This document shows positions 6,752-47,389 of a stretch of DNA of 64,000 bases, piece by piece. The notes under the pieces are model-generated. The model was given only the letters and a program-made list of their open reading frames with translations, had not been told where the DNA came from and ran no database searches. The DNA comes from Rhynchonema sp. JSB1_4 (lineage: Eukaryota > Nematoda > Chromadorea > Monhysterida > Xyalidae). The stretch spans positions 29,665 to 93,664 of the forward strand of contig JASAMV010004233.1 in assembly GCA_030248065.1 (NCBI GenBank), written 5' to 3'. A program made the position numbers and the translations under genes. Positions within the stretch are counted from its first letter, which is position 1; every line of letters begins with the position of its first letter.

Positions 6752-6788
<37 letters not shown>

Positions 6789-12352: not shown

Positions 12353-15300
12353 ATGGCCAACATCACCCGGGAAGGAGCGCATGTCGAGCGTGACCAACAT
12401 TTGGTGCGCGATGATGTGGTGCGCACGCAGCCGACGCCACTGTGCATTGATATGGGATCGATCATGGAAGTGCTCTTCACAAGTAAACGTTCATTGTTGT
12501 TTTGGACAGTATATAATGCACTTTTATCTGTAGCATTCGCATCGACGTCACCTGAGTGCACCCCTTTGTGACAACACAGCTTGATGAAGGCGTAACAACA
12601 CTGTGTATAGGCAATCCATCGGCTCATGGCACTTTTTACACGCACAGCGCATGCAGCAGCACACGCCATTTTCTAAACAAGACAGCACTTTGGGCGAGTG
12701 TCATACTTTGATGACCGCTTTTTAATTTGTTCAGTTTTTATTTGCTGCTTGATACAACACTTCTCTGCACTGTTGCAAAATTTGGGGATGTTTCAACTCA
12801 TGACTGCAGAGAAGAGAGACATTCATTGATGGCAGTAATGTAGCGTGCAGCCTGTGTGTGTTGAGTGCCATGAGCTGGCGGATTGCCTATACAATTCACA
12901 TTGTGGGTACAACTTTGCACGACACAATTCTCAGATTACGCACGGTTTATATACGCGGTCAATGTGTTTGTGTATCCAGCGATCTACGCGTTTGGTCTGA
13001 TTGGATACATTCTGGTGGGCAGATGGATGCTTTCCAAGAGCGTGCTGGGCAAACGCATGATCAGGTACGTAGGGATAGCTAGTCTCTAATGGTACTAGTG
13101 TCTATAGGGTTGATCTCAGGCCTAGGCTTACAATTAGGCCCATTATTTCTGGGGTTGGATCAAGCATTGCTGGAAAAGTACAGTGAGACTCTGAGCGTTC
13201 CGTTGATCCAAGGCCTATAGGTCAGCGTCTCTGGTTTTGAGCTATGGACTACCGTACTAGCGAGAGAAGGAGTTCGACAATAAAAAAGTCTCATCGTAAT
13301 TTTGTTCAGTAAACCAATCCAGTGACCATTTTAATTGCGCAGCCATTTCCGCGCACAAGCATTCTGCGACTGCCTGCTGCTACTATCGACCATGGTGTCT
13401 ACCCTGCCCTCCTACGCCCTGTATGGTAACATTCGACAATACGGTGTATTTGGGCAGATCGTGTATTTGCTACTGCCCGTCCAACACACGGCCGCGACCA
13501 CATCGCAATGGCAACTCATACTCTTCTCGGCTGAGCGGTGGGTGTGATCGGGCTTTTATTCGGAGGTTTATTTTAATTTCGAGTTGAAATTCCCCAAATA
13601 ATTGTTGATAGCGAAACGTGATGACATGGGATTTCTGTTCGACATCAGTGAGATAACATTGTTTGTCTGAAATGTCAATTCGAGATTACAATTAATTGGC
13701 CGCAACTCGCAATCCTGCTCCGGCGACTTTTAATAACGATTAAATCCCGATCCGGCAATCTCATCGGGATTGATGGAGTCGAGTTGTAACCAGGGTTGGG
13801 CAAAAAACGTTTTTTTCCAAAAAATCGTTTTTTTTAAAAAAAACGTTTTTTTTAAAAAAACGTTTTTTTTTAAAATGCCCAGATGACCAAAATATGCCCC
13901 CAAAAAAATTGGAAAACGCTCATGTTGGGAAGAAAACGTGGTTAAATGAAGTAATTCTATGTGTTCTGGGGCAAAATAAACGGGTTTCAACCCTTTTCTA
14001 GCGAGTTGCTAAGATCCCATATCAGACCCGCATCGTGGGACCAACTTTGGCCGGGGTCATCACTGAAAGTCAAACTCCGTATATCGACGTATCTCGACAA
14101 AGTAAAAATTGGTCGAAAATTTTTTGAAAAAAATGGGACAAAAAATTGATTTTCCTTGATAATCAGGGTACTTTCCCTGAAAAATCAGGGAAAATCAAGG
14201 AAATTCAGGATTTAAAAAAAACGAAAAACGACCCAGGCGTTTTTTTTAAAAAAAAACGTCGTTTTTTTTTAAGAAAAAACGCCGTCGTTTTTTTTGCCCA
14301 ACCCTGGTTGTAACCCTGGCGGAAGAATTTTCCCCTTTTGCACTCGCCATCCCAAATGAGTGTACATTCGATGGAAGTGTGTTTGAGTGAAAATTCGGCA
14401 ATTTAAGCGTATTTTTCCTTCGTCCAAAGCGTGTCGAGAAGCAGGCGTGGTCCCCATAGATGCTCCCTTGCCTTCCAGTCTGTACTTCATCAGTCGTCCA
14501 CTCTCGTCACACACAAACATCGATCGAATGCCATCCGTGTTGGCCATGTTCAGTGTCAATCTGGGTGTGTCGGCTGTGATTCACGTGTTGCGTGACTTCA
14601 CGGCCACGTCGTTGGTCAAATGTGTGGCGCCCGACACAGGCGCACTCACCGGACAACAACAGGTCGCACCCGTCGCGCTACACCCTGTCCTGTCTGTTGG
14701 TTAGCCTGTGTTGTGTTGGCGTTATTTGGGTTCAAACCGGGGGGGGGGGGGTGGTTTTTTGAGCGCCCGATTCTGAACGCCTGTCTCGTCCTGAACATTG
14801 CATAACTGAAATCACGTTCCCTCAAACTGCCAGGGACAGATTTGGTTTAATGGGTGGAATTTTCGAAACGGTGTAAAGGTCAGTTGGGCGTAAAGGTCGG
14901 CGTAAAGTTCGGTCGAAAGCTCGGTCGGCGTAGCTCGGCGTAAACGTGAAACATTGCCTGTTATTAACGTGGAATGTTTCAAGTTTACACCGAGGTCTAT
15001 CACACTGAGCTGTCGACCGAGCTTTCCACCGACCTTTACACCCAACTGACCTTTACACCGTTTCGAAAATATCGCCCAATGTATCTGATCAGTTTACAAT
15101 TTTCTGGCATGGGTTTGCGAGATTCGAGAGTTTCGACTGAGATATTGTTCAGGTGAAAATATCTTTGCTGATATGTTATTGAGAATAATTTCATCAATTT
15201 AAAGTTGTTTAATATTGGTCGGCTAACAACTTTATAGCTCCTGGTTGAATTCCTGCAAAATTTTGAAAAATACCCAAATTCTCGTATCACATTGCGCACA

Positions 15301-16740
15301 TGGTCGGGGGTCAGAGTCTGTTTTGGTCAAAGGGCATAAATCGGTCCCCAGAAATATAGCCAAGTGATACGGCTGTTATGCGCACACTTTCGCCTTCAGC
15401 TATCAACGTAATACCGAATCTGGTGTTGTTCTGCCCGGTACCGTTTGTTTTGATGCTCATCATTGCTGCCCTTACCGTCTACCACGTGAACAAGTCAGCA
15501 TCGAAGACAAATCAGCCGAGCTCATCACGACGACGGCATCACGGGTCGCACAAACGACCGCAGTTACTGTTGTTGGCTAGTTTGAGATCATCGCGTAAAC
15601 GTTTATTTCGTCAACTACTGCACATGTATGGGTTTCCGATGAAACGTTCTAACGACATATGTATCTTTTGATGAGGTGGACGACATGATTGTCTAAATCT
15701 TGCGAGTTCCGCCCAAAACTTACACAAAACACCATCAAGTTCTTCGAGAATCTTTCCAGCTGACGATCTTCAAATACCTGCTGAGCAACACGGCCATGCT
15801 GGCGCGCACGACGCTGCGCTATTACAACATGTATGCGAATGCCAGTCAGGTAACGTTGCAATATTTGTCAGTTAACTTTGTCAGTTAAAATTGCCCAGTC
15901 ATTGTCAAAAATGTCCCAGGCGAAACAATGGCGATCTGTATTGTACGTCGACGAAGTGGCTGTCATGCTGTTGTTGTTGCACAGTGCCACAAATTGGTGT
16001 GTGTTTGGTGTGTGGTCGAAGACAGATCCAACAATCAAACAGAACTCGACCATTGAGGTGAGTCAACGTGGAAAAGCAGCGTGTTTTTTGGGTGATTGTT
16101 TCGAACTCAGAATCACACCACGTGGTGTACCAGGTCGTCGTCAGTGGCCAGAATGTAGGTATAATACTAGATGGCCGTACGTGGAACAACGCCAGGAACC
16201 ATTTTCGATGCGGATTATCGTTTCAGCTGGAGTACATAGCTTGTCCATTTTCGGGTCGTGGACCAATTTTGTTTGAATCATTATTTGCAACAGCGCTGGA
16301 ACACTAATAGTTGTTCATTTTGGCATAGGAGAACAACTTTTGCGCTGTGGTCGAACTTGGTGCTCCGAGGCCATCACAAAACAAAAATGTTGTCTCTACA
16401 AGCCAAAAAATCGACAAATACAACTGCGCGTTTACAGCAAGCGCGCACGTTGCTATCCGGCGGCTCGAAGACCGCGGTCAAATATTCAATTGCCGCGGCG
16501 AAAAACTCGATCGTCAGCGAGAAACCGTGCATGAGTGCGGAAGAGGCGGGCGTTTTGCGACAGAGTTGGACAAACCGCAGCAGCAATTGTTGTTGGACGA
16601 TGAAGATGTTGCTCTTGTGCAACAGCAGCGCTGCTCCAACAGCAATCTATTGGGCACTCGGACTACGGCCGTGTAAGAGAGAATTATGGTTGCCGTCGGA
16701 AACCGACCCGCTGACATGTACATTATATACCTATACATAG
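12353..16740 (+). CDS. Receptor copy A: 7TM protein with decayed globin start
   Basis: Exons 12353-12482, 12935-13064, 13343-13537, 14479-14699, 15400-15575, 15760-15849, 15920-16057 and 16438-16740 read in phase as about 460 residues. The first three exons equal copy C in length (130, 130, 195). Conserved features are an N-terminal NIT glycosylation site, TM1 (NVFVYPAIYAFGLIGYIL), TM3 ending SAER, TM5 (NLVLFCPVPFVLMLIIAAL) and TM7 (HSATNWCVFGVW). The final exon starts like the B/C globin (VSEKPCMSAEEAGVLRQSW), then diverges. No exon for the proximal-His helix or the H helix follows. Oddities: exon 5 ends in a GC rather than a GT donor, and an extra 70-bp intron splits the TM6-TM7 exon. A different acceptor (exon start 16329) gives a Gln-rich tail stopping at 16676. 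It may be a plain receptor or a decaying paralog. Confidence 0.7.
13791..14306. mobile_element. hAT-like element in intron 3 of copy A
   Basis: Termini CAGGGTTGGG/CCCAACCCTG with an exact 8-bp duplication, GTTGTAAC (13783-13790 and 14307-14314). The interior shares a 200-bp block with the element at 59253-59779, including CAAACTCCGTAT and repeated AAAATCAGGGTACTTTCCCT. Confidence 0.88.
14742..14752. repeat. G11 homopolymer
   Basis: Eleven or more G in a row in intron 4 of copy A. Its length may be unreliable. Confidence 0.7.
14852..15077. mobile_element. Hairpin MITE family B, copy 3, in intron 4 of copy A
   Basis: A 226-bp hairpin, GGGTGGAATTTTCGAAAC...GTTTCGAAAATATCGCCC, with AAT on both sides. 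It is the same length as the copy at 11961-12186 and in inverted orientation relative to it. Confidence 0.87.
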
Positions 16741-16840
16741 CCAAGCACCGATTTTCTCTCATCACCATGAGTGTCGATTAACTATCATTCCAGTTACAAA
16801 TGAGAAAATGAATGGTGGTGATTTATGGTATACTACATGC

Positions 16841-17115
16841 ATTGGTCGCACAATGACTATATAAGAATCCATCCAAAAAATTTTCCTGAATGGTAAGGCA
16901 CGTCTCGATGCAGATCACAAGCTCCCTATTTATATTTTTTACATAACATTTCCGGTTATATTGCAGTGAAGCTGTTTGAACACAGTGAGCGTGATATCGG
17001 CAGAAATGTTTTGGAAAAAATATAAATAGAACGCTTGTGATCTGCAGCGAGACGTGCCTTACCATTCAGGAAAATTTTTGGATGGATTCTTATATATAGT
17101 CATTGTGCGACCAAT
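16841..17115. mobile_element. MITE family A, copy 2 (near-perfect palindrome)
   Basis: Termini TGGTCGCACAATGACTATAT and the complement. The inversion continues through GGATGGATTCTTATAT, CCTGAATGGTAAGGCACGTC and GATCACAAGC almost to the centre. It lies about 100 bases past the end of copy A, where the lost globin exons would be expected to begin. Confidence 0.85.
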
Positions 17116-17596
17116 ATTACGCATCAATGTGAATAAATTTCTACAATATCGAAAAACTTTTTCGCATTTCCCAAAGAGCCCCGCGTCAATGTTGTCAAAG
17201 CATCGGCTTGGAAGATGTGCAACGGTGGCGTAAACAAAAACATGAGCTCTTTTTCCATGCGAGGCAAGCGTGATTGACGTTGAGTGACGTGTTCAGAACT
17301 GTAATCCCGTCTCGGCCATTATTATAGTATCAAAGGTTTTGGCCGGCTAGGTAATTTGCCTTGACGTCAAAGCCAGATTTAAACCGATCGGCTAGGCATT
17401 TTAGCCTATTTCCAACACAGCGCAACACGTTATTTAACTGAGGCTAAGGGCATCTGCTTTTTCCTTTTTCTCGCCAGTAATTGGTTAATTTTTACATATA
17501 TACGGTAGTACATGTGTTACGGTCGATCAAAGGCGGCCAGGTCGATGATTTATGTACAGTATAAGCAAGGCAGCCCCTATGTACAGTAGTTTTGAG
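17116..17596. other. No recognised gene
   Basis: Short spacer between copy A's trailing MITE and the triplicated repeat block. I see neither exon-like nor shared repeat sequence. Confidence 0.4.
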
Positions 17597-18244
17597 CAGG
17601 GTTGGAAAAAAGATTTCTAACAAGGTTCTGTAAAAAAATTTTTTTAATGAACTTACATTTTTTAAAAAGTCTCAGATTCCGGGAAATTTGACTAAATTTG
17701 CCGAGCGCGCGTAAAAACGTGAAAAAATGCAACTTTAATTGACAAGCCATTTTTGTGATTTCGTTCGCATAAATTATGAAGGGTGTTTACGTCATATCGG
17801 TGCGATCCAACAGTTTGTGCTTGATATGGACCGATGATTGTTGCTCTATGGTAACAGACACAATAGTTTATGGCCGGATAAGCAAGATTTACTCATAAGC
17901 CATGGAGACAATCGGCTGCAGAACCACTCGTCGGGTCGCTGAATCAGTGTATCTGACCGCCTGATGGGGTATGTCATTGAAGTACCACGTACATATTATG
18001 TCTCTCATGTATCACTGGAGGGTGTAATAACATCATTTAGGGCATCTTGGGTTCCAAATACATGCCCCAAAAGTAATTTTGTGAAGCAAATTTTTCGACC
18101 CTTGAGAAAAAATGACAGAAAAACAACCCCCAAAAATTTTCAGACGTTTTAGAACATTTTGTTCCCCCGAAAAACTGAGCAATTTTTTTTAAAAAAAAGC
18201 TTTTTTAAAAAAGAATTTTAAAAAATTTTTTTTGTCCAACCCTG
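17597..18244. mobile_element. hAT-like element
   Basis: CAGGGTTGG...CCAACCCTG. The flanks GTTTTGAG and ATTTTTAG agree at 6 of 8 positions, consistent with an old 8-bp duplication. Confidence 0.75.
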
Positions 18245-18674
18245 ATTTTTAGCGTTTGAAAGGAAATTAAGCTTCTTCTTGATCCAAACTGTTATCTCAC
18301 GCTTTCCGCTGGACTCCAGCGTAATTACGTAGCTTCTATTCGTCCGGAAAATTCTGGAAAATTCGTCTGTTTGTGAAAACGCCGTAGTTAATTAAAGGGG
18401 CTGACCAGAGCAATGATAATGGTCTTTGCGTGAGCGTGCGTAATAAATTGAATTTTGAAGCGTGTATAGCTATTTTTGGCGGTGGAGGAAGACAGTAATC
18501 AGCTTTGTGAATTATTATGAATGACCACCAATTAATCAACCTACCTACGTGTGCAGATTTGCATTTATACTGCGTGCGCACACAGTTCAGCAACTATGTA
18601 ATTGGTGATTTCCCGAGCAAAAATCACGTGTGTATCTTCTACACAGGGTTCGCGGGCCAACAGTGCCCGGAAGC

Positions 18675-19154
18675 CAGGGTTGAAAAAAAAGAAAAAAAAT
18701 TTTTGTGAAAATTGTTTTAAAAAGTTGTCCGCTTTTATATTTTAAGGTTTTAAGAAGTAAGTCCTCTTTTTAATTATTTTTTTTTACTTCGTTCGCCATA
18801 TTTTTCTTACTTTTTTAAGGTAAAAAGGCATGTTTTTATGCCTTTTATGCCTTTATCAAAAAATCGCATGCGGCACTTAGATTTCAGTTTGAAATGGTGT
18901 TGTAATGGACTCATAAGGTTCCTAAGGATCCCAACAAGCGTCACATGTACAAACACCCCATACTGTAAACTGTGCAGTCACTTGAGCGTGACGTAAACTG
19001 TGGACACGCTCGACGGTGTTACTCGCCTGTTTGCAGAGGTCGTGGATTAGTCATTTGTTGTTTTTGTGATTTTTAAAAAGAGCGATTTTTAAAAAAGTAT
19101 TGAAAAGATTTTTTTAAAAAGTTCAGTAATAAAAATTTTTTTTATCCAACCCTG
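18675..19154. mobile_element. hAT-like element
   Basis: CAGGGTTG...CCAACCCTG with A/T-rich inverted inner ends. Copies at 22022-22495 (inverted) and 23961-24439 (forward) belong to the triplicated unit. Confidence 0.75.
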
Positions 19155-20394
19155 CCGAGGCCTGGTGGTAGTTATTGGCCGTCATTGTGTTGCCCAATCG
19201 TGCAGCCATGCTTTTATTATATTTGTTGTGTGTGTCGAGATGTTTAAAAATGTTTTTTAAAAGTTTCTTTTTGCTATCTCTAAACTGCGTGCATCTCTTA
19301 TTTACAGTACGTTGGTTTTTCACTGATTGAGGTAATTTTCGTCTAGACGCATAATGGTTCATCACTTTAATGCCAAAAATTTTGTTACGTATGTGTATAC
19401 TCTATGACGTAAAGTTGGAAACTTTTAAAGACCGTTCAAAAAAAATTAAATTTGATGAGACACTTCTTTACATCTCTGGTTGTGTGCGCTCGCCATGATT
19501 GGTGAAACATTAATGAGAACTGAGACATCCAAGCATTATATGACAATTACTGTAAAGTTAAGCTACGCAGACACAATAACGTTTCAAGCTGGCTTTCAAG
19601 TTGATATCGCAGCCAAAATACAGCTTGCTTCACACGATTTGCAATATGGTCGAAAAGGATTATGTAGCTGGTTTCACCTGACTGTGATAGGCTAGACATG
19701 CGCGATGCCCTTGAGTTTAGTGGAGAATCAACTGTAATAAAACACATGATCGCAATCACAAATCAATCACAAAATATTGATCGGAAAGAGTCAGTGAACT
19801 GCGAATCCCATCCATCTGGAGCTGAGGATTGACTGTTGTTTTGTAATCGACCAGTTGTGAAAGGTTGTGCTGAATGCTAATCGCAGCTTCAGGTGCTGAC
19901 CACTGTTCACCATATACTGTATAGCTGTCCTCAACGTTGACGAAACTGTTCTATTATCAATCCTGATCATCATCTACACCTCTCGATCCAAACTTTCCAC
20001 TGGCTCACTAAACACTTGTAAACGCAAACTACGCCAACACGAGCCCGATTTCGAAGGTGGTGTGTATTCAAAATGAATAGAAAGAGAAAATCATCATCCT
20101 CCATTTTGTATGCTTCAACGTGTAACATTTCCCAAATCAGCAGCCACGTCGGAATGTTTCACTATTCTGCCAGCTGCGAAATCGAGCTCATGTTGGTGTA
20201 GCTTACCTATAATGACTTATGGTTTCGTCATTAATGTCCAGCTATGCGTGTTGATGACGTTACCATGTAGCTTCTGATGCAATGAAAACCTTGCACTTGA
20301 ACTTGCTGCTGTACGTGTGTTCATATCCTCTTGCGTACCGGGCGTATTTTGCTCATATCCTCTTGCTTGCTGTTGTACACTTTGCCCCCAACCT

Positions 20395-20720
20395 TTTCCC
20401 CCCGCCCCCCCCCCCCCCCCCCCAACCCCACCCCCCAACTTACTAGCCCCCTTTCCCTCCTCTCTCTCTCCCCCATACTCCACCCCCCCCAAAATAAACG
20501 TTGCAAAATGACAGTTGCAATTTGAGCAAAATGCACCAACAAGAAGTTGTTGTGCCCCCAACACCCCCCCAAACCACCCCCCCCCCACCACCCCCCCCCC
20601 CCTCTCCACCAAACAAACACACAAAAAAAAAACACAAAAAATAGAAACACCACACCCAACCCACCACAACAATAAAAACACACAAAAATAACAACACACA
20701 AAAATACCCCCCCCCCCCCC
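20395..20720. repeat. C-rich low-complexity spacer between inverted units
   Basis: Repeated runs of 8-16 C broken by A and T, followed by CACAAAAA-type sequence. It separates the forward copy from the inverted copy and could form i-motif or G-quadruplex structures. Run lengths are doubtful. Confidence 0.85.
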
Positions 20721-22897
20721 ACAACAAGCAAAAGGTCATGAGCAAAGTACAACAGCAAGCAAGAGGATATGAGCAAAATACCCCGCCCGGTACGCAAGAG
20801 GATATGAACACACGTACAGCAGCAAGTTCAAGTGCAAGACTTCCATTCATCAGAAGCCTCATGTTACACATCAACAACCACAACTGACAATAATTACCAA
20901 AACACCATAAATTATAATATAAGCTACACCAACATGAGCTCGATTTCGCAGCTGGCAGAATAGTGAAACATTCCGACGTGGCTGCTGATTTGGGAAATGT
21001 TACACGTTGAAGCATACAAAATGGAGGATGATGATTTTCTCTTTCTATTACCATTCCCCTTCGAATATACACACCACCTTCGAAATCGGGCTTTTTTGCT
21101 AGTTTTCTTTACAAGTGTTTAGTGAGCCAGTGGAAAGTTTGGATCGAGAGGTGTAGATGATGATCAGGATTGATAATGGAACAGTTTCGTCAACGTTGAG
21201 GACAGCTATACAGTATATGGTGAACAGTGGTCAGCACCTGAAGCCGCGATCAGCATTCAGCACAACTCTTCACAACTGACTATGGTCGATTACCGAACAA
21301 CAGTCAATCCTCGTACATACGTATGTCTACATTCGACAACAGTATGAAAGGCTGCAGATGGATGGGACTCGTAGTTCATTTGACTCTTTCCGATCAATAT
21401 TTTGTGATTGATTTGTGATTGTGATCATGTGTTTTATTACAGTTGATTCTCCACTAAACTCAAGGGCATCGCGCATGTCTAGCCTATCACAGTCAGGTGA
21501 AACCAGCTACATACATAATCCTTTTCGACCATATTGCAAATCGTGTGAAGCAAGCTGTATTTTGGCTGCGATATCAACTTGAAAGCCAGCTTGAAACGTT
21601 ATTGTGTCTGCGTAGCTGAACTTTACAGTAATTGTCATATAATGCTTGGATGTCTCAGTTCTCATTAATGTTTCACCAATCACGGCGAGCGCACACAACC
21701 AGAGATGTAAAGAAGTGTCTCATCAAATTTAATTTTTTGAACGGTCTTTAAAAGTTTCCAACTTTACGTCATAGAGTACCCACATACGTAACAAAACTTT
21801 TCGCATTAAAGTGATGAACCATTATGCGTCTAGACGAAAATTACCTCAATCAGTGAAAAACCAACGTACTGTAAATAAGAGATGCACGCAGTTTAGAGAT
21901 AGCAAAAAGAAACTTTTAAAAAACATTTTTAAACATCTCGACACACACAACAAATATAATAAAAGCATGGCTGTACGATTGGGCAACACAATGACGGCCA
22001 ATAAGTACCACCAGGCCTCGGCAGGGTTGGATAAAAAAAATTTTTATTACTGAACTTTTTAAAAAAATCTTTTCAATACTTCTTTAAAAATCGCTCTTTT
22101 TAAAAATCACAAAAACAACAAATGACTAATCCACGACCTCTGCAAACAGGCGAGTAACACCGTCGAGCGTGTCCACAGTTTACGTCACGCTCAAGTGACT
22201 GCACAGTTTACAGTATGGGGTATTTGTACATGTGACGCTTGTTGGGATCCTTAGGAACCTTATGAGTCCATTACAACACCATTTCAAACTGAAATCTAAG
22301 TGCCGCATGCGATTTTTTGATAAAGGCATAAAAGGCATAAAAACATGCCTTTTTACATTAAAAAAGTAAGAAAAATATGGCGAACGAAGTGAAAAAAATA
22401 ATTAAAAAGAGGACTTACTTCTAAACCTTAAAATATAAAAGCGGCAACTTTTTAAAACAATTTTCACAAAAATTTTTTCTTTTTTTCCAACCCTGCTTCC
22501 GGGCACTGTTGGCCCGCGAACCCTGTGTAGAAGATACCACGTGATTTTTGCTGGGGAAATCACCAATTTGCTGAACTGTTGCGCACGCAGTATAAATGCA
22601 AATCTCACACGTAGGTAATAGGTTGATTAATTGGTGGTCATTCATAATAATTCACAAAGACTGTCTTCCTCCCGCCAAAAAAGTATACGCTTCAAATTCA
22701 ATTTATTCGACGCTCACGCAAAGCCATTATCATTGCTCTGTCACTCCTTAATTAACTACGCGTTTTCACAAACAGACGAATTTTCCAGAATTTTCCGGAC
22801 GAATAGAAGCTACGTAATTACGCTGGAGTCCAGCGGAAAGCGTGAGATAACAGTTTGGATAATAAAGAAGTTTAATTTCCTTTCAAACGCTAAAAAT
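20720..22897 (-). repeat. Triplicated unit, copy 2 (inverted)
   Basis: Reverse complement of most of copy 1. With copy 3 it forms a palindrome with arms of about 2.2 kb around a 635-bp hAT-like element (22898-23532). The base order reading outward from the centre (ATTTTTAGCGTTTGAAAGG) is the same on both sides. Confidence 0.85.
22022..22495. mobile_element. hAT-like element (inverted copy)
   Basis: CAGGGTTGG...CCAACCCTG. It is the reverse-complement counterpart of 18675-19154. Confidence 0.75.
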
Positions 22898-23532
22898 CAG
22901 GGTTAGGACAAAAAAATTTTTTAATGAACTTACATTTTTTAAAAAGTTTCAGATTCTGGGAAATTTGACTAAATTTGACTAAATGCCGAGCGCGCGTAAA
23001 AACGTGAAAAAATGCAACTTTAATTGACAAGCCATTTTTGTGATTTCGTTCGCATAAATTATGAACGGTGTTTACGTCATATCGGTGCGATCCAACAGTT
23101 TGTGCTTGATATGGACCGATGATTGTTGCTCTATATGGTAACAGACACAATAGTTTATGGCCGGATAAGCAAGATTTACTCATAAGCCATGGAGACAATC
23201 GGCTGCAGAACCACTCGTCGGGTCGCTGAATCAGTGTATCTGAGCACCTGATGGGGTATGTCATTGAAGTACCACGTACATATACGTATGTCTCTCATGT
23301 ATCAATGGAGGATGTAATAACATCATTTAGGGCATCTTGGGTTCCAAATACATGCTCCAAAAGTGATTTTGTGAAGCAAATTTTTCGACCCTTGAGAAAA
23401 AATGACAGAAAAACAACCCCCAAAAATTTTCAGACGTTTTACAACATTTTGTTCCCCCGAAAAGCTGAGAAATTTTTAAAAAAGAAGCCTTTTTTAAAAA
23501 GAATTTTTAAAAATTTTTTTTGTCCAACCCTG
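22898..23532. mobile_element. hAT-like element at the palindrome centre
   Basis: CAGGGTTAGG...CCAACCCTG. Its flanks are CTAAAAAT and ATTTTTAG, which are reverse complements rather than a direct duplication, so the element sits exactly at an inverted junction. Confidence 0.78.
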
Positions 23533-25735: not shown

Positions 25736-26030
25736 ATCCTCCTGCTCGCTGGTGTGTTATGCTCATATCCTCTTCCTTTGTAAGTGCATTTTCTCATATC
25801 CTTTTGCTTTGCATTGTGTTAGCTCGTGCCCTCTTCCTTGCTGGTGCATTTCGCTGACGCCCTCTTCCTTGCTGGTGCATTTGCTCACACCATCTTCCTT
25901 GCTGGTGCATTTTGCTCATATCCTCTTACTTTGCAACTGTATTTTGTTCATATCCTATACTTTGCAACTTATTTTGCTAGTATCCGCTTGCTTTGCAACT
26001 TATTTTGCTAGTATCCGCTTACTTTCGTGC
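25634..26030 (+). repeat. Degenerate minisatellite
   Basis: About a dozen units of roughly 30-35 bases around TTTGCTCATATCCTCTTGCTTG and TTGCTGGTGCA, with progressive divergence. Single units also occur at 20317-20390 and 20745-20815. Confidence 0.8.
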
Positions 26031-26399
26031 TTTCTTTCTCTCTCGCACTAATAACACGTAGAAAAGTTTCGTTGATACATCGATCAAAATTGTACTGCCG
26101 TTGCCAATTTGGCATCAAACAAAAGTTTAGCCTTTGTTGCGCATTCCGTCAGAATATGAATAAAATTGAGAGTGGACAATTCAGACATGGGCGGGTTGCA
26201 CGAACACCGAAATTACAGTGACAAAATAGCTCGCTTTGAAGTACTGCAGTAGCAGTCGATAGGCTTGCCCCTCCAAGTGCTTTTTCAGCTGCGCACAACA
26301 TGCTGATGCAGCGACAGTTTTGGAATGGCGATGGTTGCTGCTTCTCTGGCGCTGGGGACACAAAGCAAAACATGGGTTAAAAATGGCCAGGGTATTGTG

Positions 26400-26870: not shown

Positions 26871-26976
26871 TGTCTGTCGTCAATTGTTCGTCATTTAATT
26901 CCTTGCTCAACAACACCCCGAAACAGTTTAAGAAACATGCTTTGTTGCCAACCACATTTAATCATGTTATCAGTAA

Positions 26977-34300: not shown

Positions 34301-37300
34301 ATTCAACAGGTTCGTTCATCGATGTAGCAGTTGTCCAAAGAACTATCGTTGTGACCGCTCACAGACGACAGCATGCGGCGATTTGAGATTGACCGAAGTT
34401 CTGATGTACCCGTTGCAGAGCAGAACGAAGGAAAATGAAAGTGCCACGCAGAGGCTGGTGGGTGGCGGCGAGTGTGTTTGTTGATCTTCGTTTGTGTGTC
34501 CGAGTAGTGGCCGGTGGTGAAGAGCTGTACTGAAGGTTGATCGGGCGTTCAGGAGTTGTTCAGCAGACTTCCTCCCCTTCGAACGGTGATGCCTGAGTCC
34601 GCGTTTCGGAGAAGAGGGGAATAGTGCCCGGATGGATTTCTGTCAAATTCGCTGGTCGCGGAATCGACGGTTGCCTAGGATGCCATGTCGAAAATGCGAA
34701 CATGAGCATCAACCGTCCGTAGCTCTATGACATTTACTTTTGATGTTTCGGAGAAAGCAAACTGACACAAATGACTAGTAGATGGAAGATTACACAATAT
34801 ATTGTATGTAAGCTGGGTTAGCAGTGCGCACACACATTCCAATGAAACGTGTAACACAAGTCAAAACATCACATGACTGCTTGGCTGTTCCGAAGTTACA
34901 GTTGGTGGATCTCATCCGCTACATGCAGCGCCAATGGCAAAAAACCCTGGCTCCACGCCAAATCAATGCTATCTAGCCGCTCCCTTCCTTCGTCCCATCA
35001 CCATCACCACTTTTTTCTCCTGCCCACCTCTTCTTCAAGCACCTGACCAAAGACTTCATCCATTCACTATAGTGTGGTAAAGTCATCCTGCTGGCCGCAA
35101 TTAAATGCTCACCCTAAAGATCAAAGATAGGGCCAAAGCAAATTTCTTGTTTCGATCCCTGATCGAAAATCTCGTCAAAAGCAAAATTTGAGATCGAACC
35201 GGTCTATCCAAGCATTTATTGTAGATTAAGAGCTGGAACCTGGATCAGCCGATTTCAATTTCGTCTAGATTCTACGCAATGACAGGATTTTTGACAGCAA
35301 AATTGTAAAATAAAGTTTTTTGTATAGCATTCCCTAAGGGCGGACTTAGGTTGAACACGGAAACCGGAACACGGAAATATTTCCGTGTTCCGTGTTCCGT
35401 GAATATTTTGGAGAATCACGGAACACGGAAATATTTCCGTGTTCCGTGTTCCGTGAATGTTTTGGAGAATCACGGAACACGGAAATATTTCCGTGCCACG
35501 GAACACGGCAATGGTTCAGGCACGCAAACGATGCTTTTGCAGTGATGACGACAAAAGCCAGCGTGCTGACGTCAAAAGCCCGCGTGTTGACGCAAACAGT
35601 AACAACTATTCACACGGAAATATTTCCGTGTTCCGTGAAAATAAAAAACACGGAACACGGAAACCGGAAATATTTCCGTGCCACGGAAATATTTCCGTGT
35701 ACGGAAATCCACGAAACTGGTTTGTATGTAAATTATTTCCGTGTTCCGGTTTCCGTGTTCAACCTAAGTTCGCCCTAAGCGGCAGGATTCGACCCGTTGA
35801 ACGGCTCTACTCATCTAGAAGCATTTTCTTGAAGCGTCAATAATTGTATGTGATGTAATGTATTTCTGTTGAAAATTCTGCTCCACAGTCTAATTTTGAA
35901 TCCACAGCGAGTTTAAACTGACTACAGGCGTCACACCATGCATACAAACACGTTGACGTTCGCAGGTGACCATCTTCAAATACCTGCTGAACAACACAGC
36001 ACTGTTGGTTCCAACGGTGTTGCGACTGTACAACAACTACGTTGATCCGACTAACGAACGACTTTGGCGTGTCATCTTGTATGTTGATGAAATCAGTGCA
36101 GCCATGTTATTGGCGCACAGTGCCACTAATTGGTGTGTGTTCGGTGTCTGGGGACGACACGAGTCGACGTTGAATACCATGCAGGTATGAGTACAGTCTA
36201 CTTTCATTAACCAGTGCCAGTGCGTGTGAGTTGGCTGATTTATAACTTACTTCACTATAAAATGACTTTTTCGTGGTCCATCATCTTACGTGTCGTCCTC
36301 AAAAATATTCACACCCCACGGAATCGTATCACGGGGTTAGCGGCAAACTGGAAATGAATCTATGAAAAAAGTAGCCACTATAGAGATGTGTTCTCAGAGG
36401 GTCACTATAGATGGGGTGTACTACCTACACATGCATACTTTTCAGCACACACGTTCACCGCAGAAAAAATCAACGACGTGTCAATCGAATTCCCGACTGA
36501 GAACGTCAATAGTGAGCGACGTGCCATGCATGAGCTTACGTGAAGCGCTGATCCTCAGAGATGCGTGGAGCAATGCGCACGAACGGGATGAATTTGGGTA
36601 CAGGCTTCTGAGCGCAGTCCAAAGAAAATGTCGAATCACAGTGGATGATAGAAGCTGTGTCGATGTCACCAATCGGTTGTCACACGTGGATCTTGTTCGA
36701 ATGGGAAGCGTGATCACCGACTGTCTTGGTATGACTGACATTTCTATTTAGAGTCATCATCACTCCTCACCCTAGAACATCCTAGATGGATAAGTGTTGG
36801 GTTTGACATTACCTTGGGATCAAAATGTTTACAGTCCATCGACCATCTTTATTGAGAACATCCATAATACATCTATAAATGTTCCACATACGGAGCAAGT
36901 TTTTGGTCTCAAATTTACGGATAGCCTCGTAATTACTGTTCTGTGTAGTGAATGCGTTCCATATCATGAACAAAAAAAGCTGGTCCCGATCGATTTCCTA
37001 TATAGAGTGTTGACTGTACATCCAGCTGTATTTCAGCCGGCTGTGGCCCTTGTGTCCATGCATAACACGAGCGCATTAGCGAGTCAGGAAGTGGGTGGCT
37101 GCTTCGTTACCGATAGTGTGTAACGGACAAAAATATTCCTGCCAAAGCCTTCTCGGACAAGGACGGTTGGCGAAGTGCATACCGGGAATCCCTTGCAGAC
37201 AAAACGATACATCAGCTGTGCGCCAAATCGTCCATTACGAGCGTACGTCGAACTCTGCGTGCCATTGGTCATGTGCATCAGGCAAAGTCAGTGCGCGTGC

Positions 37301-37710
37301 GAGCCGGTGACTGGCACACGTTCAAACAACAATTTGAGACAACGGTAGGACTGACGGTTGGTCGAAGTTTGTGTTTATAAACATCTATAGATTATGTGGA
37401 TGATCAAAACTGACTGGTTGCATCACCATTGAAGAGAACAACTGAGTTTCGCTCGTCTGAGCAAAACGTTGACGATGAACTGCTTCGCGTGGCTGTCGAC
37501 CGTTTCGTACAACTTGTGATCACTGAAATCAAATTGGGCGCGCACAGTGCTCGCGCCAAATCGTCACATGTCAGTTGTTTGCGACCATCGCTCAGTTTTG
37601 GACACTACTCGTCAATGACCAAGGTTAACTCTCTGTGTGAAACAGATAATAAGGAATCGGCCACCATTGCACGCTGTGCTGGTGCTGTTGAAACTCACAG
37701 CTTCGTGTAA
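31354..37710 (+). CDS. Receptor copy B: 7TM receptor–globin chimera
   Basis: Exons 31354-31480, 31699-31828, 31955-32149, 32584-32798, 33194-33375, 35966-36184, 36446-36728, 37199-37356 and 37435-37710 join with GT–AG borders and phases 1,2,2,1,0,0,1,0 into 594 residues. The outer N-terminus has NPSWPFCTD. TM1 is NVFVYPIIYTFGMIGYAL; TM3 ends QWQLIMFSAER (E-R in place of DRY); the second outer loop has CIDPNTG; TM5 is LVLFCPVPFIVMLIIGIL; TM7 is HSATNWCVFGVWG in place of NPxxY. A linker (about 357-385) leads to a globin domain: A-helix ALILRDAW (Trp397), F-helix LRAIGHVHQAKSV (proximal His477), H-helix RVAVDRFVQLVITEIKLG. Likely role: a plasma-membrane receptor with a cytosolic heme sensor or redox domain. 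The role is inferred; the domain order is read directly. Intron 5 (2.6 kb) holds a foldback element. Confidence 0.88.
33090..33180 (+). repeat. Intronic fragment repeated three times near copy B
   Basis: Just before exon 5, this reads CQFAFAVTSRVNVIEPHT then IDAYVRIFD in one frame. The reverse complement, with related translation, occurs at 33899-34110 and 34680-34885. Confidence 0.6.
33899..34110 (-). repeat. Repeat pair member 1 (about 205 bp)
   Basis: Direct repeat with 34680-34885, sharing TGTCGAAAATGCGAACATGA, GACTAGTAGATGGAAGATT and GTCAAAACATCACATGACTG. It lies in intron 5 of copy B. On the minus strand it reads LCQFAFSVTSKVNGIE and so resembles 33090-33180. Confidence 0.75.
34680..34885 (-). 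repeat. Repeat pair member 2 (about 205 bp)
   Basis: Second direct copy of the block at 33899-34110, about 780 bases downstream, with an extra TTGTATG. The minus-strand reading is LCQFAFSETSKVNVIELR. Confidence 0.75.
35338..35775. mobile_element. Foldback element family F, TAA duplication, copy 2
   Basis: GGGCGGACTTAGGTTGAACA...TGTTCAACCTAAGTTCGCCC with TAA on both sides (35335-35337 and 35776-35778). The inside is built from reiterated ACGGAAATATTTCCGTG palindromes and an approximately 70-base tandem that includes TTTTGGAGAATCACGG. It lies in intron 5 of copy B. Confidence 0.87.
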
Positions 37711-39850
37711 AACAATTTTTTGTTCTCCTATGGTATTCTATCATTTTTATTTTTTTGCATTACTCGTGAGGAAGTAGGTAATAGCAATTGGCTCTGATCA
37801 AGATCGAAATGCTTCAATTGGCTTCGTGATTCTATCGATTCGTGGCTTCTTGACATATGTATACAGTTTTCAATGAATCAATGAATTAATGAATGCTTTG
37901 GAGTCTTATGGTACTTTTGTTTAAAATGATCCGATGGTACCGATGGCATATTTACATTTCTCACGGTCATAGTCATGTCATAATTTTCGATTCAAAATAT
38001 TTCGTCAGTTATATCAGAATATTTTCCTTGTGTGACTTCCGGTTCCTGATTGACCTCGTCATCGGTGTCAAATTCGGTGCCACTTGCTGCTGCTGCTGGC
38101 AGTTGCATCAGGTCACGTTCAATTCCTATTGGTTCGATATCGGCTGACTAGGTTTGCATCAGCTGCGAAGCCGTTGGCAGCACGTCTGCAAGCACGAGCT
38201 CTTTTTTATTTGTATTCGACTTCACGCACCTCCGGTGCAGAACTGACGCTTTTTAAGGAATTGCTGATAAATTGAGCGTCGAAAAACATATTTTGAACTA
38301 GGTTTTCACACTTCGCATCGGTTATTTGTCTCTGTCTGTGGCTAAATCAGTGGATTATGCTTTATATTCACCACGCTACCAACGCGCTAACAACGCGCAA
38401 CATTTGATGAGGACAGACGACCTGCTCCAAATAATCACCCTTGGGTGTCATCGTCAACCGGACGTCAATCTTAAGAAACCACGCACTGTGCAAAAAAAAC
38501 AGTCAAAGACGGACGAGGAGGGTGCCACGTTTATAATATGATGACATGGATAATGAAAAAGCCGGTTTTTGTCCTGCTTTACATCTTCTTTTTTTCTCAT
38601 TCTTTTCGGAAACGCAACTTTTAAAAGTTTCAATGTCCACCAACAGCAAACTCATTCTTGGACTACGTGCTTTGCGCGATTGTGTCACGAAAACTAGCCT
38701 GTATGTTACAACCGGTCGGCGCAAATTAGATATTGCTTATGTCCGGTGCAAAATACAGAATGAAACACATGCAAAATCTATACATGTTTATGCACATACG
38801 TAGCCACTACAAAAGCCGCTGACAACCCTGTGTTTCTATGATGCATGACACCATATGACGAAAACGGTATGTACAGGGTGGCCTTTTTGGAAATCGTTTT
38901 TGATGAGACTGGCTCTTGGCGTTGTTATGCACTACCTATGAGATGTATTGTACCGCATTCGAAACCGTCGTTTATCTAATTTGTATGATAAGTTTGGTCA
39001 ACTGAAGGACTTTGACGGACGAGCTGCGGTCTCTGGTGATTGTCCCATGCATAATTCTCTGTCTGATGAAACTGCACTAATCTCACTAAATGCACCACCG
39101 CCACCGCGGGCGGTTGCGCAACCATGTATTTGATATATCTTACGCTGTTCACCTCGGTGCGTAAATTCCGTTTACTCCCAAAACATGCGTGCGATAAAAA
39201 AAACGCCCTGAAAGTCGTCATCATCCTGTTTGGGGCGCAACGGGCCGCGGTGGCTGTTGCGTCTACATTGTCTCTGCGTGTCTCAGATTATGACTGATTA
39301 GTGCTGAGTGTTTGTTTTTTTCACACTTAACAGGTTTTTATGCGTTTTTTTGCTGTTGCAACTTTCGTTTTTGAAAACTGGCCCAGTTGTAATTTCCTCA
39401 GATGGTGCATATCTGAGTCATAGTCTTCCATGTTTGTGCTGCCTGTTCTCGGTCTGCTGAGATAAAAGAAATAATAAGTCACTGTTTCGTGAGGTGCGTT
39501 AAGTACAGGCAAATCACACGCCGGAGGCTACGACGATCGAAGCTGACGGCACCACAACCGCGGGTCTGTGTTGACGATATCTGAGAGGTGACGACATGAA
39601 TGTAGGACAACTACGTGCATACGCGCAGTTATTTACGTGCGAGTTTTCCAGGATCTTTCCAGTATTCATGAAATTATTCATGCGTCTCGTCGCTTTCGTA
39701 ACACTCATTGCAACGCGTGTTTTATTTCTTTATAGTGTTTGTCGCGACGAACAGTTTATTTCATTACTTTGATTCGCACAAAATACATCGCATTAAATCT
39801 TTCGGCTCGCGCGACAATAATCGAATGAGCGATGTGGCTGCGAGGTTCAA
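37711..39850. other. No recognised gene between copies B and C
   Basis: Several open frames of 60-90 codons occur, with no splice-consistent chain or family match. Confidence 0.4.
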
Positions 39851-39859
39851 TTATACTTA

Positions 39860-40760
39860 TGTCACTTGATTGTCGAGCACTTCTCCAAACACAAACTTCT
39901 CTCCATTAATTCTACCAAAACAAAACTTCAACAATTTGCTCGCTCAAGTTCATGTCCCGCTGTCCCTGCTATTGTGATTGATGAATGTCTGATTGATGGT
40001 GTCGATGCAAACAAATATCTGGGTGCTGTTATTGATTCCAAGTTTGATTTTGGTCTGCATACTGCTGCAACGTCTGTGAAAGTGAAGAAAATTGCTGGTT
40101 CATTGTACCGTACCTTTCGTAATGATCTACCTGTGTCTGTCATGCGTTATCTGTATCAAATCTTGATTTGCTCTGTCATGTACTATTCGTGTGAGGTGAC
40201 CTATCCTATTCATGACTATTCGCGTAATTTGTTGGAAAGAACACAAAAATCCATTATTCGCATCTTCTCTGGCAATTATGATCGGTCTGTATCATATTCG
40301 CAGTTGTGTTCAATGTTTGGTGTTGATTATGTGGGTGTCACTGCTATTGTGCTAACACTCATATTCTCGCTACCAGTGCTATTGTTATCATGTCCCATCT
40401 TTACAATGCTTTACCTGATTTTGCTGTTTTCCTGCGAATGGGCACATTCAAAGGAGTCATTCGTTCGCAAAGCTTGATTGTTGAATTGTTGTACAAATTG
40501 CGATTGCTGCCAGTGAAATTTATTCCGTCCGTGTGTGAAATGTAATTGACCGATCATGCTGTGTTTCTGTGTTTTCTGTGTTTTTTGCTCCTTATCATCA
40601 TCTACATCTCTCGATCCGTAACTAACCACTGGCCCACTAATCACTTGTAATTATTTATGGTTTCGTCGTTACTGTCCAGCTTATGCGTGTTGTTGACGTT
40701 ACCATGTTGCTTCTGATGCAATAAAAAACTTGAACTTGAACTTGAACTTGATCTTGGTCA
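39860..40760 (+). pseudogene. 5'-truncated non-LTR retrotransposon with 3' tail
   Basis: A frame at 39866-40477 shows the C-terminal part of a reverse transcriptase: INSTKTKLQQF, then DANKYLGAVIDSKFDFGLHT, then LLERTQKSIIRIF. This is the order found in CR1/jockey-type elements. The 3' end is ACTTGAACTTGAACTTGAAC (from about 40727), a simple-repeat tail. The 3' region (TTATGGTTTCGTC..., CTTCTGATGCAAT) recurs in the 17.6-25.7 kb triplication. The catalytic YADD region and 5' end are missing. Confidence 0.72.
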
Positions 40761-42526: not shown

Positions 42527-42528
42527 CC

Positions 42529-42568: not shown

Positions 42569-45500
42569 ATGCGCACGAACGCCACAACACCCGACTGGGT
42601 AATTGTTGAGCCTGAAGTCGTCATCAACATGTTGTTTCAAAACCCGAGCTGGCCCTTTTGCACCGACATGCTGAACTTCATGAAAGTGATATCACCAGGT
42701 GCGTATAGTTTTTTTAAAATTGTATAATCTTCGGAGCAATTTGATGCCGAGTACGTAACTGAAGTCGAACCACCAAACCCCCCCAGTAGCTTTACCAGAA
42801 ATGTTATTGTACAACGCTTTAGTAGTCAAAGGGAACTTTACGCACCGAGGTGGGTAGCGTGATTTCACCAAATACGTGCGTTTCTCTTTCTTTCGTTTTC
42901 GAAATACGTCGAACCGCAACATTATTGGGTCTGCTCAAGTAACCTCAAAAAAGGTCGTGTAATGAGCCCGTGGTTGGACATTAAACACAAGGGGGACCTC
43001 CCACTTGCTCATACCGTACTCTCAGGTTACGTCCATTTCACCTATGCCGTCAACGTGTTCGTGTACCCGATTATCTACGCATTTGGTGTGATCGGCTATG
43101 TACTGGTCTGTTATTGGCTTGTACATCAATCAGCCGTACGCAAACGCATGTGCACGTTAGTCATTTATTGAGTTTGTTTGCCAGCGTTTAGTTTGGAGAT
43201 GTGCATGAAGATACATACATGAATCCCCTATCAAACTGACCTTGCCGAAGACTATGGTTTTACACAGTGCACAACGTGTGTTACATACACAGCACGCAAC
43301 CATGAACACACATGGCCGGCCTGTTGATGTTGCCAGTATATGTGTGTGTACTGCATAAACACCAAAACAACAATCGGTTTTGGTCCGTGATGCAGTTTGT
43401 GCGCATCAGATCGAATTAATGCCGCATATCTTACTCAAGGCAAGTCCATGCCAAGCCTATGCCATGTCCATGCCAAGTCTATGGGTGGAATTTTCGAAAC
43501 GGTGTAAACGTCAGTTGGGCGTAAAGGTCGGTGTAAGCTCAGTTTAATCATGAAACCTGCTGTTAACGTGGAATGTTTCATGTTTAAACCGAACTTACGC
43601 CGATCAACCTTTCGATCAAGGTGACACAGACCTTTACACCGTTTCGAACATACCACCCGAAGCCAAATCTGTGCCATAGCGCTTGCTCGAAAGTTGATAC
43701 GGCCCCAAATGTTACACCGGCATCGGTTTAAAAAATACGCCAAGTATTTCCCACTTCCAGCCACATTCGTGCGCAAGCGTTTTGCGATTGTCTGCTGCTT
43801 GTCTCAACGATGGGTGCGACATTTCCGTCATTTTTTCGCCATGGGTACATGCGACTGTACGGTTTCGTTGGTTACACCACTTATTTCTTGACACCCATAC
43901 AACACGTAGCGATCACGACATCGCAATGGCAGTTGATTATCTTCTCGGCTGAACGGTTGGTTCGGAGGCAGGGTTGGGCAAAAAACGTTTTTTTTCTCAA
44001 AATATACGTTTTAAAACAACGTTTTTTTAATAAAAACGTTTCTTTCAAAAACGCCCAGATGTCTAAAACATGCCCCGAAAAAGTTGAAAAGGTGCGTTTT
44101 CGGAAGAAAGGATGGCTAAACAGTATGCTTTCGTGTGTTATAAAGCGTATAAATACAGCATCAATCCTTCTAGCAGTTCCAATCATTCCAGTTTGGTCCA
44201 CACCACATCATCTGACAAAATTTGTGTGCATCTTTTTATGCATGCCACTGCATACTCGTTAAAAAGTAAGCAAATAACGAAAAAACGTGAAAGAGTAAAA
44301 AATGGACTTACTTCTAAAATTTTGAGATAAAAACTGGCCTACCTTCTAGAGCAAATTAAAAAACAAATAAAAAAGTTTTTACTGTTTCAAATCGAACCCT
44401 GACTACAGCGAAGCGACACGCAACTCAGCCACTTGCAGGCTGTACTTCATCAGTCGTCCGCTATCGAGTCACACCAACGTGCACCGTCTGCCGAGTGTGT
44501 TCGCGATGTCCATTGTCAACGTGGCTGTGGCTACCCTGATCCATCTGATGCGTGATTTCACCACATCATCCATGGTTGAGTGCATTGACCCAAACACGGG
44601 CGTGATGAGTGCTCAACCACAAAACGCAATAGTACATCCAGCATTGTCATACGGTGAGCTACAGATTCGTCTCGATCTGATTTGCGACCTGCTCGTCGCC
44701 AAAGTTCGTTATTCGACTTCGTTGTAAAAGTTTAGAGCCGAAAGGAATAAGCGTCATATTTACCATTGGATTGTTGCGATGGTTGAAAGAGAAAATCAGC
44801 GTCTAAATTTACAGCGAAGTCTGACATCAAATCACATAGTAACCGTTGTTACCCTGGACAACAGGTTTCGTCCTGACAACGAGCACTTGAACTCGTTCGA
44901 CGATCTGATACGACGAGCTGTCCAACATCAGGCGACTGACTAACTAAAATCTGGCTGACAAAACTGACTTACTCACATATAACAATAAAATTACTGCTAA
45001 TTTCAGTCGTTCACCTGCTGCTGAACCTTGTGTTGTTCTGCCCGGTACCATTCATAGTCATGTCGGTCATTGGCACTCTCACCGTTTACCACGTGCACAA
45101 ATCGCGTCTGTCGCGCAATAATGCGGTGCAGCAACAACGGAGAAACGTCACGTCCGCAAAGTCACACCGGAGGGCACAGTTGTTGTTATTGGTGAGTTTG
45201 CTGACTAATCCGCATTTTTTATTGTTCGGTTTGATCTAAATGGTCGAAGGATCGCAGAATCAGTGATTGGGATCGATGCCATTTCGTATTGCATTTCGAT
45301 TTGAGAAAGTCCTCCACCTGGATTATGGTAGATTTCTTAAGCTGAAACTGGAATCGATTTCTGTTTCGTGCTGAAAGGAAAGTCTACCCCAGGATTTTCA
45401 GCAGCAAAAATTTCATATGAACCGAGTTATTGGTTAATACCAAAACCTGTTCTCGAAACGTAAATATCCACCAGAAACCTTTGCATTGAAAGTTCTGCTA

Positions 45501-47389
45501 CACTGTATAGAGACGACCAACAGGCGTCAAAACGAAGCACTAAATCACTGCGCGACTTTCACAGGTCACCATCTTCAAGTACCTGCTGAGCAACACAGCA
45601 CTGTTGGTTCCAACGGCGTTGCGTCTGTACAACAACTACGTTGATCTGACCAATCAACGACTTTGGCATGTCATCGTGTATGTTGATGAAATCAGTGCTG
45701 CCGCGATGCTGGTGCACAGCGCCACTAACTGGTGTGTGTTCGGCGTGTGGGGACGGCACGAGTCGACGTTGAACACCGGGAAGGTGGGTGTATTCATCTG
45801 TGGTGGCGCGCTGGCGCCCGTTAATATAAATGGAAGGTTGACGGCCACCGTGATGGCCACCTACATTCATGCATTTATACTGCACATTATGTAAGCCTAC
45901 TATTCAGCGTTCACTGCATGACCGATCAGCGCCGTCTCAATTAACTCCCCGACTCAAAATGTCAGTTGTGAGCGACTTGCCGTGCATGAGCCTACATGAA
46001 GCACTGATCCTTCGACAAGCCTGGGGAAACGCGAAACAACGGGATGAATTTGGGTACACGTTTCTCAGCGCGCTACACGCAAAGCGTCGCATCACAGCGA
46101 ATGATGCAAACTCAGGCGACCTTATCAATCGGTTGTCAAACGAGGATCTAGTGCAAATGGGCACCGTGATCACCAACTGTCTTGGTAACGGAGTTCTCCA
46201 TTTTCAGACCCGTTTAAGCGGGATGCTTTGTTGTCGAAGTTAACGATGAAGCACCCCTGCTTCCCATAATGTCCTCGAAGTCTCCACTTGGGCGAAATAA
46301 CTGTATGAGACTGATTTCTTGCTGTTTTCGCAGCAACAGATTCATGGGCCAATATAATGTTTTAATAGATAAAAGCCGATTGTTTCATTGGCCACTGGAA
46401 AAATCGTGCACTTCGCACAAGGAGATACCAAACTTGGTGAGCGGTCTAGATTTGCTTCCTTGTCTTTTTGTGACAAGGATATTCCGAGATTTACAAAAGG
46501 CACTGTTTTGAGCAGCGTAAAAGTTCATTGTTAGTCGTCTGGGCTGGGCGAGATCAGTGGCGTCAGTAAAACGTGAAAATGTCCTTAACACAAAAGTCAC
46601 GTGGCCAATGCGAAGATCAGAACAGACGAAACACTAAGTTTGATTTAACCGCCCATAATTGTCACCTACAGATGAAACGATAGATCAACTGTGCGCCAAA
46701 TCGTCCACAACGACCGCACGTCGGTGTCTACGCGACGTTGGTCATGTGCATCACGCAAAGTCGGTCCAAGTCCGTTCGAGTGACTGGCACACGTTCAAAC
46801 AACAGCTTGAGACAACGATAGGACTGACGGTTGGTTATTGTTCACGTTGATGAACAAGAGAAAATATGTGGGCTCCGCAAGGCAAAAGCTAGGATATGGT
46901 CGACGTGAGGTGAATGAAGGGTATAAAACTCTGATTCACGATGGCACTCTAGTCCTAAAGTCCTAAATTCAATCGTTAGCGAAGTGGAAACACACTTTCG
47001 AGCTACAGTATACAGCGTTGAATGATGACAAACCTACCGCATGGGGTTTGTGTGCGCCACCACGCATGCAACGACAATTTGTTTTGCAAACTGGCTGGTT
47101 ACATAACCTTTTTAAGACAGCCGAGTTTCGCTCGTCTGACGAAAGCGTTGATGATCAACTGCTTCGCGTGGCCGTCGACCGTTTCGTACAGCTTGTGATC
47201 ACCGAAATCAAATTGGGCGCGCACAGTGCTCGTGCTAGATCGTCACATGTGTGCAGCTCGAGACCATCGCTCAGTGTCGGATTCCATTCGTCAACCAACA
47301 AGCTTGATTCTCCATGTGAAACAGATCAACAAGAATCGACCACCAACGAACGCTGTGATGATGTAATCGAAATTCACAGCTTCCTGTGA
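42569..47389 (+). CDS. Receptor copy C: 7TM receptor–globin chimera
   Basis: Exons 42569-42698, 43026-43155, 43761-43955, 44439-44653, 45007-45191, 45565-45783, 45908-46184, 46672-46829 and 47117-47389 join in the phases of copy B to give 593 residues. The N-terminus has an NATT glycosylation site and NPSWPFCTD. The receptor includes NVFVYPIIYAFGVIGYVL (TM1), QWQLIIFSAER (TM3 end), MVECIDPNTG (outer loop) and HSATNWCVFGVWG (TM7). The globin includes EALILRQAW (Trp397), LRDVGHVHHAKSV (proximal His477), DWHTFKQQLETTIGL (G helix) and RVAVDRFVQLVITEIKLG (H helix). No Phe is evident at the CD corner, and the distal position is not His. It is very close to B, so the duplication is recent or under constraint. 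Introns 2 and 3 carry MITEs. Ligand and heme chemistry are unknown. Confidence 0.89.
43483..43658. mobile_element. Hairpin MITE family B, copy 4, in intron 2 of copy C
   Basis: GGGTGGAATTTTCGAAAC...GTTTCGAACATACCACCC. It is shorter (176 bp) than the 226-bp copies because of a central deletion. Confidence 0.82.
43969..44401. mobile_element. hAT-like element in intron 3 of copy C
   Basis: CAGGGTTGGGCAAAAAACG...CGAACCCTG, starting 13 bases past the splice donor of exon 3. The flanks do not show a clear 8-bp duplication. Confidence 0.75.

Follow-up and report, generated by a model that had tools for sequence, protein, structure and literature searches.

A tandem array of candidate receptor-globin genes

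Fusions of a receptor with a globin are considered very rare in animals. We analysed a 64,000-nucleotide stretch from the nematode Rhynchonema sp. JSB1_4 (contig JASAMV010004233.1, here C2577, positions 29665-93664; hereafter the window) and searched the genome, 204 Mb in 5747 contigs. The window contains three tandem copies on the + strand, named A, B and C, which start at 12353, 31354 and 42569. In B and C, six exons for a putative class A receptor are followed by three exons for a putative globin domain, whereas only a globin stub follows the receptor exons of A:

31354-31480, 31699-31828, 31955-32149, 32584-32798, 33194-33375, 35966-36184 (+): copy B receptor exons 1-6, splice model; predicted class A peptide G-protein-coupled receptor (GPCR), from the profile of A, B and C and 79% receptor identity to C
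36185-36445 (+): copy B intron 6, receptor-globin junction; 261 bp, phase 0, second codon a stop if read through
36446-36728, 37199-37356, 37435-37710 (+): copy B putative globin exons 7-9; W397 at 36566-36568, E7 Met442 at 36701-36703, F8 His477 at 37276-37278, stop at 37708-37710
42569-42698, 43026-43155, 43761-43955, 44439-44653, 45007-45191, 45565-45783 (+): copy C receptor exons 1-6, splice model with a class A receptor match
45784-45907 (+): copy C intron 6, receptor-globin junction; 124 bp, phase 0
45908-46184, 46672-46829, 47117-47389 (+): copy C putative globin exons 7-9; W397 at 46022-46024, E7 Met442 at 46157-46159, F8 His477 at 46749-46751
12353-12482, 12935-13064, 13343-13537, 14479-14699, 15400-15575, 15760-15849, 15920-16057 (+): copy A receptor exons; 360 open codons, 52-53% identical to B and C across the receptor
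16438-16672 (+): copy A putative globin stub, modelled from one among five possible exon-7 starts; SIVSEKPCMSAEEAGVLRQSWTN at 16507-16575 is the helix-A piece

The spliced frames of copy B (31354-37710) and copy C (42569-47389) are open over 594 and 593 residues, respectively. Each is made of nine exons, with lengths of 127/130, 130, 195, 215, 182/185, 219, 283/277, 158 and 276/273 nucleotides (B/C). At the base composition of copy A, the chance of 594 stop-free codons is ~2e-11. GT-AG borders are present in 16/16 introns, and the eight phases (1,2,2,1,0,0,1,0) are common to both genes. The last acceptor (TTGAAG in B, TTTAAG in C) is weaker than the remaining ones. The two proteins share 73% identity across their 594/593 residues. 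These models reproduce exactly the exon lengths given in a preliminary description of this DNA. They also bear out its account of constant-phase splicing from the receptor into the C-terminal domain, the positions, in both genes, of W397 and of H477, the latter being the second His of GHVH, and a cluster of three copies of which two are intact.

In a blastn comparison (E<=1e-3), B and C aligned in nine blocks, one per exon, with 70-89% DNA identity. The blocks extend past the exons by at most ~40 bases, and no block was confined to an intron. Synonymous divergence (dS) is ~0.42 across the whole protein. The ratio of nonsynonymous to synonymous divergence (dN/dS) is 0.24 for the receptor (bootstrap 0.17-0.37, 313 codons) and 0.37 for the globin part (bootstrap 0.22-0.61, 159 codons). 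By these ratios, purifying selection acts on both halves of B and C.

Copy A differs by an additional intron (15850-15919) within exon 6 and by a GC donor (15576) after exon 5. Its globin part matches B and C over the helix-A stretch only (16501-16575). The frame diverges afterwards, and a one-base alignment gap past the helix-A Trp marks the departure. A search of 12000-30000 gave no exon 8 or 9, and the contig upstream of the window gave no further copy at E<=0.1. Since dS between the A and B receptors is 2.3 (saturated) against a dN of 0.39, the receptor half of copy A, too, was under constraint for long.

The receptor half

Residues 1-358 of copy C matched solved peptide receptors of the PDB: bombesin receptor subtype-3 (E=1.3e-6, over residues 54-295), neuromedin-U receptor 2 (E=1.2e-5, collinear over 41-349) and the CCK-A receptor (E=2.2e-4). 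A profile of A, B and C found the same receptors more weakly (3.9e-4, 0.0056 and 0.047, respectively) and added the neuromedin-B receptor (E=8.1e-4). Pfam returned no family for the receptor halves of A, B and C, the class A receptor model included. Seven hydropathy peaks are seen in the receptor of copy B, and six above threshold in that of copy C. Because it aligns collinearly with class A receptors of solved structure, we assign the receptor half to class A, peptide-receptor type.

The receptor half has what we take to be the class A motif positions: D in helix 2, E-R past helix 3 and N-W-x-x-F in helix 7. The helix 7 motif reads NWCVF here, whereas class A peptide receptors have NPxxY. Unlike these receptors, B and C additionally bear the putative globin. 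An N-terminal Cys (residue 30/31 of B/C) and a loop-2 Cys (199/200) are kept in all three copies while the top of helix 3 has none, which suggests a receptor disulphide different from the usual class A arrangement.

Relatives across the genome

Many relatives were found with copy B and then with the first globin domain of contig C729 as queries, and only the best candidates were scored. Apart from B and C, nine loci have receptor and globin exons in order on a single strand: C3222, C5614, C3494, C5245, C1010, C729 (two places), C2263 and C3112. Models of the C3222 and C5614 copies reach the stop with the frame open all the way; the two copies are 90-95% identical, introns included, and may be alleles. 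At C3494, the last receptor exon alone is seen in the 5 kb upstream that the analysis covered. Because of these two cases, we put the family at 9-11 predicted receptor-globin fusions, about ten, partly in tandem. Left out of the count were C3608, with receptor exons alone, C2667, with nothing but exon 9, C4658, where a globin-like exon lies far from the receptor exons, and C2539 and C1789, for which the analysis covered the globin exons. At C3222, exon 6 is 97% identical to C in DNA and exon 5 ~94% identical to B in protein, as if copies had swapped pieces.

On C3112 (24562-27267), globin exons 7-8 and a helix-H piece come after the receptor exons, and ~0.9 kb on there is a second exon 7-8 pair. 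By eye, a candidate splice donor lies after the helix-H piece, and the room before the second globin pair is too small for another receptor. On C2539 and C1789, two globin units are about as close as on C3112. We tentatively suggest, at somewhat less than even odds, a GPCR-globin receptor family of about ten genes that fall into two or more sequence groups, with two globins in series behind one receptor in at least one of them (C3112).

The C-terminal residues are His-Ser-Phe-Val in B (37696-37707) and His-Ser-Phe-Leu in C (47375-47386), ends that we take to resemble a class I PDZ ligand. With HSFA as their last residues, the C3222 and C5614 copies fit such a ligand less closely.

The globin half

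A family alignment of 13 C-terminal domains, several of them partial, was drawn from 12 loci. When the family was compared with globins by hhalign, P was 0.073 with two sequences, 5.2e-4 with eight and 5.4e-5 with 13. The alignment is collinear from helix A to helix H, and Trp14 and His93 of myoglobin fall on the Trp and His of the family. The 8-row profile scored 28.7, against a maximum of 19.3 in 299 column shuffles, and the 13-row profile 34.5, against 16.7 in 300 shuffles. As controls, the reversed 8-row profile scored 12.1 and a seven-transmembrane receptor 12.9. The helix-F His and the helix-G Asp-Trp are present in 13/13 domains, and the helix-A Trp in all 11 that cover its position. 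The C729, C3112, C1789 and C2539 group has a more usual C helix, e.g. RPDLGKQLYG. Overall, profile homology over helices A-H identifies the C-terminal domain as a predicted remote globin homologue.

Candidate globin-coupled receptors

We propose that B and C each constitute one gene, encoding a globin-coupled class A GPCR whose globin reports the state of a heme, a reading to which we give a probability of roughly two in three. Of its parts, the fusion of receptor and globin is very probable on sequence grounds, while a heme-dependent sensor is an even call. The preliminary description had also read the proteins as seven-transmembrane receptors joined to globins within an expanded family. The former reading is supported with each half tested separately, and the latter by the nine further loci outside the window. 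In profile searches with the two halves, Pfam receptor models found nothing and Pfam Globin stayed below its cut-off, whereas the class A match in the PDB and the 13-domain globin profile agreed with this reading.

In the proposed layout, an extracellular N terminus would precede the seven helices, and a globin past helix 7 would be followed by a tail of ~54 residues. From known GPCR topology, the globin would be cytosolic, beneath helix 7. An outside ligand, probably a peptide, would bind the receptor half, and the globin would report the redox state of its heme or the ligand there (O2, NO, nitrite, peroxide). The heme state would in turn alter G-protein or arrestin coupling. In B and C, an E7 other than His/Gln and a CD1 other than Phe speak against O2 storage and in favour of redox or NO/nitrite chemistry, or of weak heme binding. 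At a guess, the distal Met of B and C could ligate iron. Duplication, partly in tandem, would have produced the family of 9-11 fusions.

Among the alternatives, the one that survives best, although unlikely, is a globin fold kept without heme, which would act beneath the receptor as a scaffold or as a module for coupling. The distal pocket counts in its favour. CD1 is not Phe in B and C, and the 12 domains covering E7 have Met (3, B and C among them), Leu (1), Val (2) or Asn (6) there, with His or Gln in 0/12. In addition, RsbR is an example of a heme-free globin fold in the available text of PMC2867796. However, the proximal His is invariant in 13/13 domains amid varying neighbours (GHVH, GRVH, GRLH, GAVH, GAMH, GGVH, GSVH), something that a fold lacking heme would have no need of. 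Moreover, the Caenorhabditis elegans globin GLB-33 has a proximal His, CD1 Val and E7 Ile (PMC2228317, available part), and hydroxo-ligated heme species are cited for its globin domain in the accessible part of PMC8468270.

It is improbable that receptor and globin are separate adjoining genes, such as an operon pair trans-spliced at exon 7. Such a pair would fit the short intron 6 of copy C, whose 124 bp are an operon-like distance, and the Met that A, B and C share just ahead of helix A. It would also fit the 22-codon linker, which has a B-C dN/dS of 1.7, i.e. no constraint, a point against the single-gene model. On the other side, the frame is continuous in phase 0 across the junctions 36184/36446 (B) and 45783/45908 (C), and a phase-0 donor closes exon 6 in every copy where it was sought and settled. 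Donor and acceptor candidates for this junction were found at C3222, C5614, C3494, C1010 and both C729 copies (phase 0 alone was searched), and the exon 7 acceptor of C5245 was not settled. Coding-like codons also precede the helix-A Met in A, B and C: of the eight before it (S-I/V-V-S-E/D-x-P-C), 2 are identical, 3 synonymous and 3 residue-changing. This stretch is probably translated, because it is mostly conserved although A-B synonymous sites are saturated. Intron 6 of B and C contains neither AATAAA nor ATTAAA. The fusion is further supported by the intron positions and phases, which match between B and C while the introns themselves do not align.

A helical domain of another kind, globin-like by chance, is highly improbable for the C-terminal part, but the tests made with single members or small profiles include several points on its side. 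Pfam Globin was listed for only 2/14 domains or pieces, C (E=0.0038, 18.1 bits) and C3494 (E=0.032), and its gathering score of 22 bits was reached by 0/14, C being the best. By comparison, pieces of ordinary globins elsewhere in the genome scored 50.5, 30.4 and 21 bits. Pfam and NCBIfam were borderline on B and C, and Pfam found nothing in four shuffles of the copy C domain. Copy B lacks a Pfam Globin match and has a transposase helix-turn-helix match instead (E=0.0077 for the domain, 0.0044 for helices E-G), also seen at C3222 (E=0.029). PDB searches with a single sequence and with 2- and 8-sequence profiles, the last listed to E=10, gave no globin. De novo TIM barrels headed the list for the 8-sequence profile, with an E of 1.1e-6 that adds up repeats scoring E>2 each.

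A hidden Markov model (HMM) of eight globins scored 12.9 on C and 10.2 on B, above 1699/1699 and 1645/1645 scored column shuffles (2000 made each). However, in the Escherichia coli control of 510 windows from 173 open reading frames, where the true globin Hmp scores 76, a window of Aer reached 12.2, between C and B. Without this genome's own globin in the model, C falls to 5.7 and B to 3.8. A helix E-G profile gave 15.5 for C and 14.8 for B, more than any of the shuffles that were scored (2663 and 2825 out of 3000). Run with the E. coli windows, it put C at 13.6, B at 12.2 and Aer at 10.1. Two further results weigh on the same side as the Aer window: a reference-only helix E-G profile (seven typed globins) set neither gene apart from shuffles, 227/2770 and 251/2860 of which reached their scores, and a profile of the genome's other globins alone ranked Aer (10.0) above C (8.4) and B (8.0).

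Taken alone, the single-sequence evidence for a globin is no more than suggestive. The helix-turn-helix match was taken as chance: it covers ~36 residues, lies far below the cut-off and is absent from C and ten other domains scanned. The TIM barrel rows were taken as repeated local resemblance. Against a chance likeness, the profile score climbs with each added set of relatives and beats all shuffles, and the collinear match spans the domain from end to end and keeps the His in register. We judge that this profile comparison outweighs the missing globin matches in the PDB.

Finally, an array made of haplotypes laid end to end by the assembly is hardly credible: C3222 and C5614, 90-95% identical with their introns, may be such a pair, but we rejected B and C as haplotypes on their unalignable introns, their dS is 0.42, and A is saturated against both.

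In the same genome, two ordinary globin genes lie nearby each other on C1999 (~2700-6800), and the second seems to have Tyr at the helix-F His position.

Comparison with known systems

GLB-33 (Y75B7AL.1) is a seven-transmembrane-globin chimera of 542 residues, with the globin after 372 residues (PMC2228317, PMC2576238; available text). The same sources describe neuronal expression and characteristics of a G-coupled sensor. As far as these descriptions allow, GLB-33 shares with B and C an N-terminal seven-helix receptor and a C-terminal globin with a proximal His, as well as non-canonical CD1 and E7 residues (Val/Ile there, non-Phe/Met here). As to differences, C. elegans has one such chimera in its set of 33 globins, while 9-11 fusions, partly in tandem, are predicted here. 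Moreover, E7 is Ile in GLB-33 and Met, Leu, Val or Asn here, and the GLB-33 tail has 8 residues (from a table row read as C-terminal extension), against ~54 in B and C. Compared by description, GLB-33 is the closest known system.

A globin is likewise joined to a signalling protein in sensors of the HemAT type, but there it lies N-terminal to methyl-accepting or enzymatic domains and not on a GPCR. These bacterial globin-coupled sensors are named in the available text of PMC2867796. Androglobin is an animal globin chimera as well, but has a calpain-like partner, a permuted globin and no receptor, as described in the accessible part of PMC13331133. Among the papers listed in the literature search, which took in few subscription papers, there was no expanded seven-transmembrane-globin family. 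The layout is already known from GLB-33; the novelty lies in the expansion and, should they be confirmed, in receptors that carry two globin units.

About ten fusions with a varied distal pocket, two of them found under selection in both halves, would be natural replicates for the effect of a globin on a receptor. Such proteins would join neuropeptide-type signalling to redox or gas state within one molecule.

Other features of the locus

Rfam (gathering scores) and ARAGORN scans of the window gave no matches, and ten other open reading frames of the window had no Pfam match at E<=0.01. One open frame, 39821-40477, also without a Pfam match at that threshold, resembles by eye the end of a long interspersed nuclear element (LINE) reverse transcriptase. 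On the same contig near 27700, ~2 kb before the window, one exon belongs to an alpha-7-like nicotinic acetylcholine receptor, matching alpha-7 of the PDB at E=3.8e-20.

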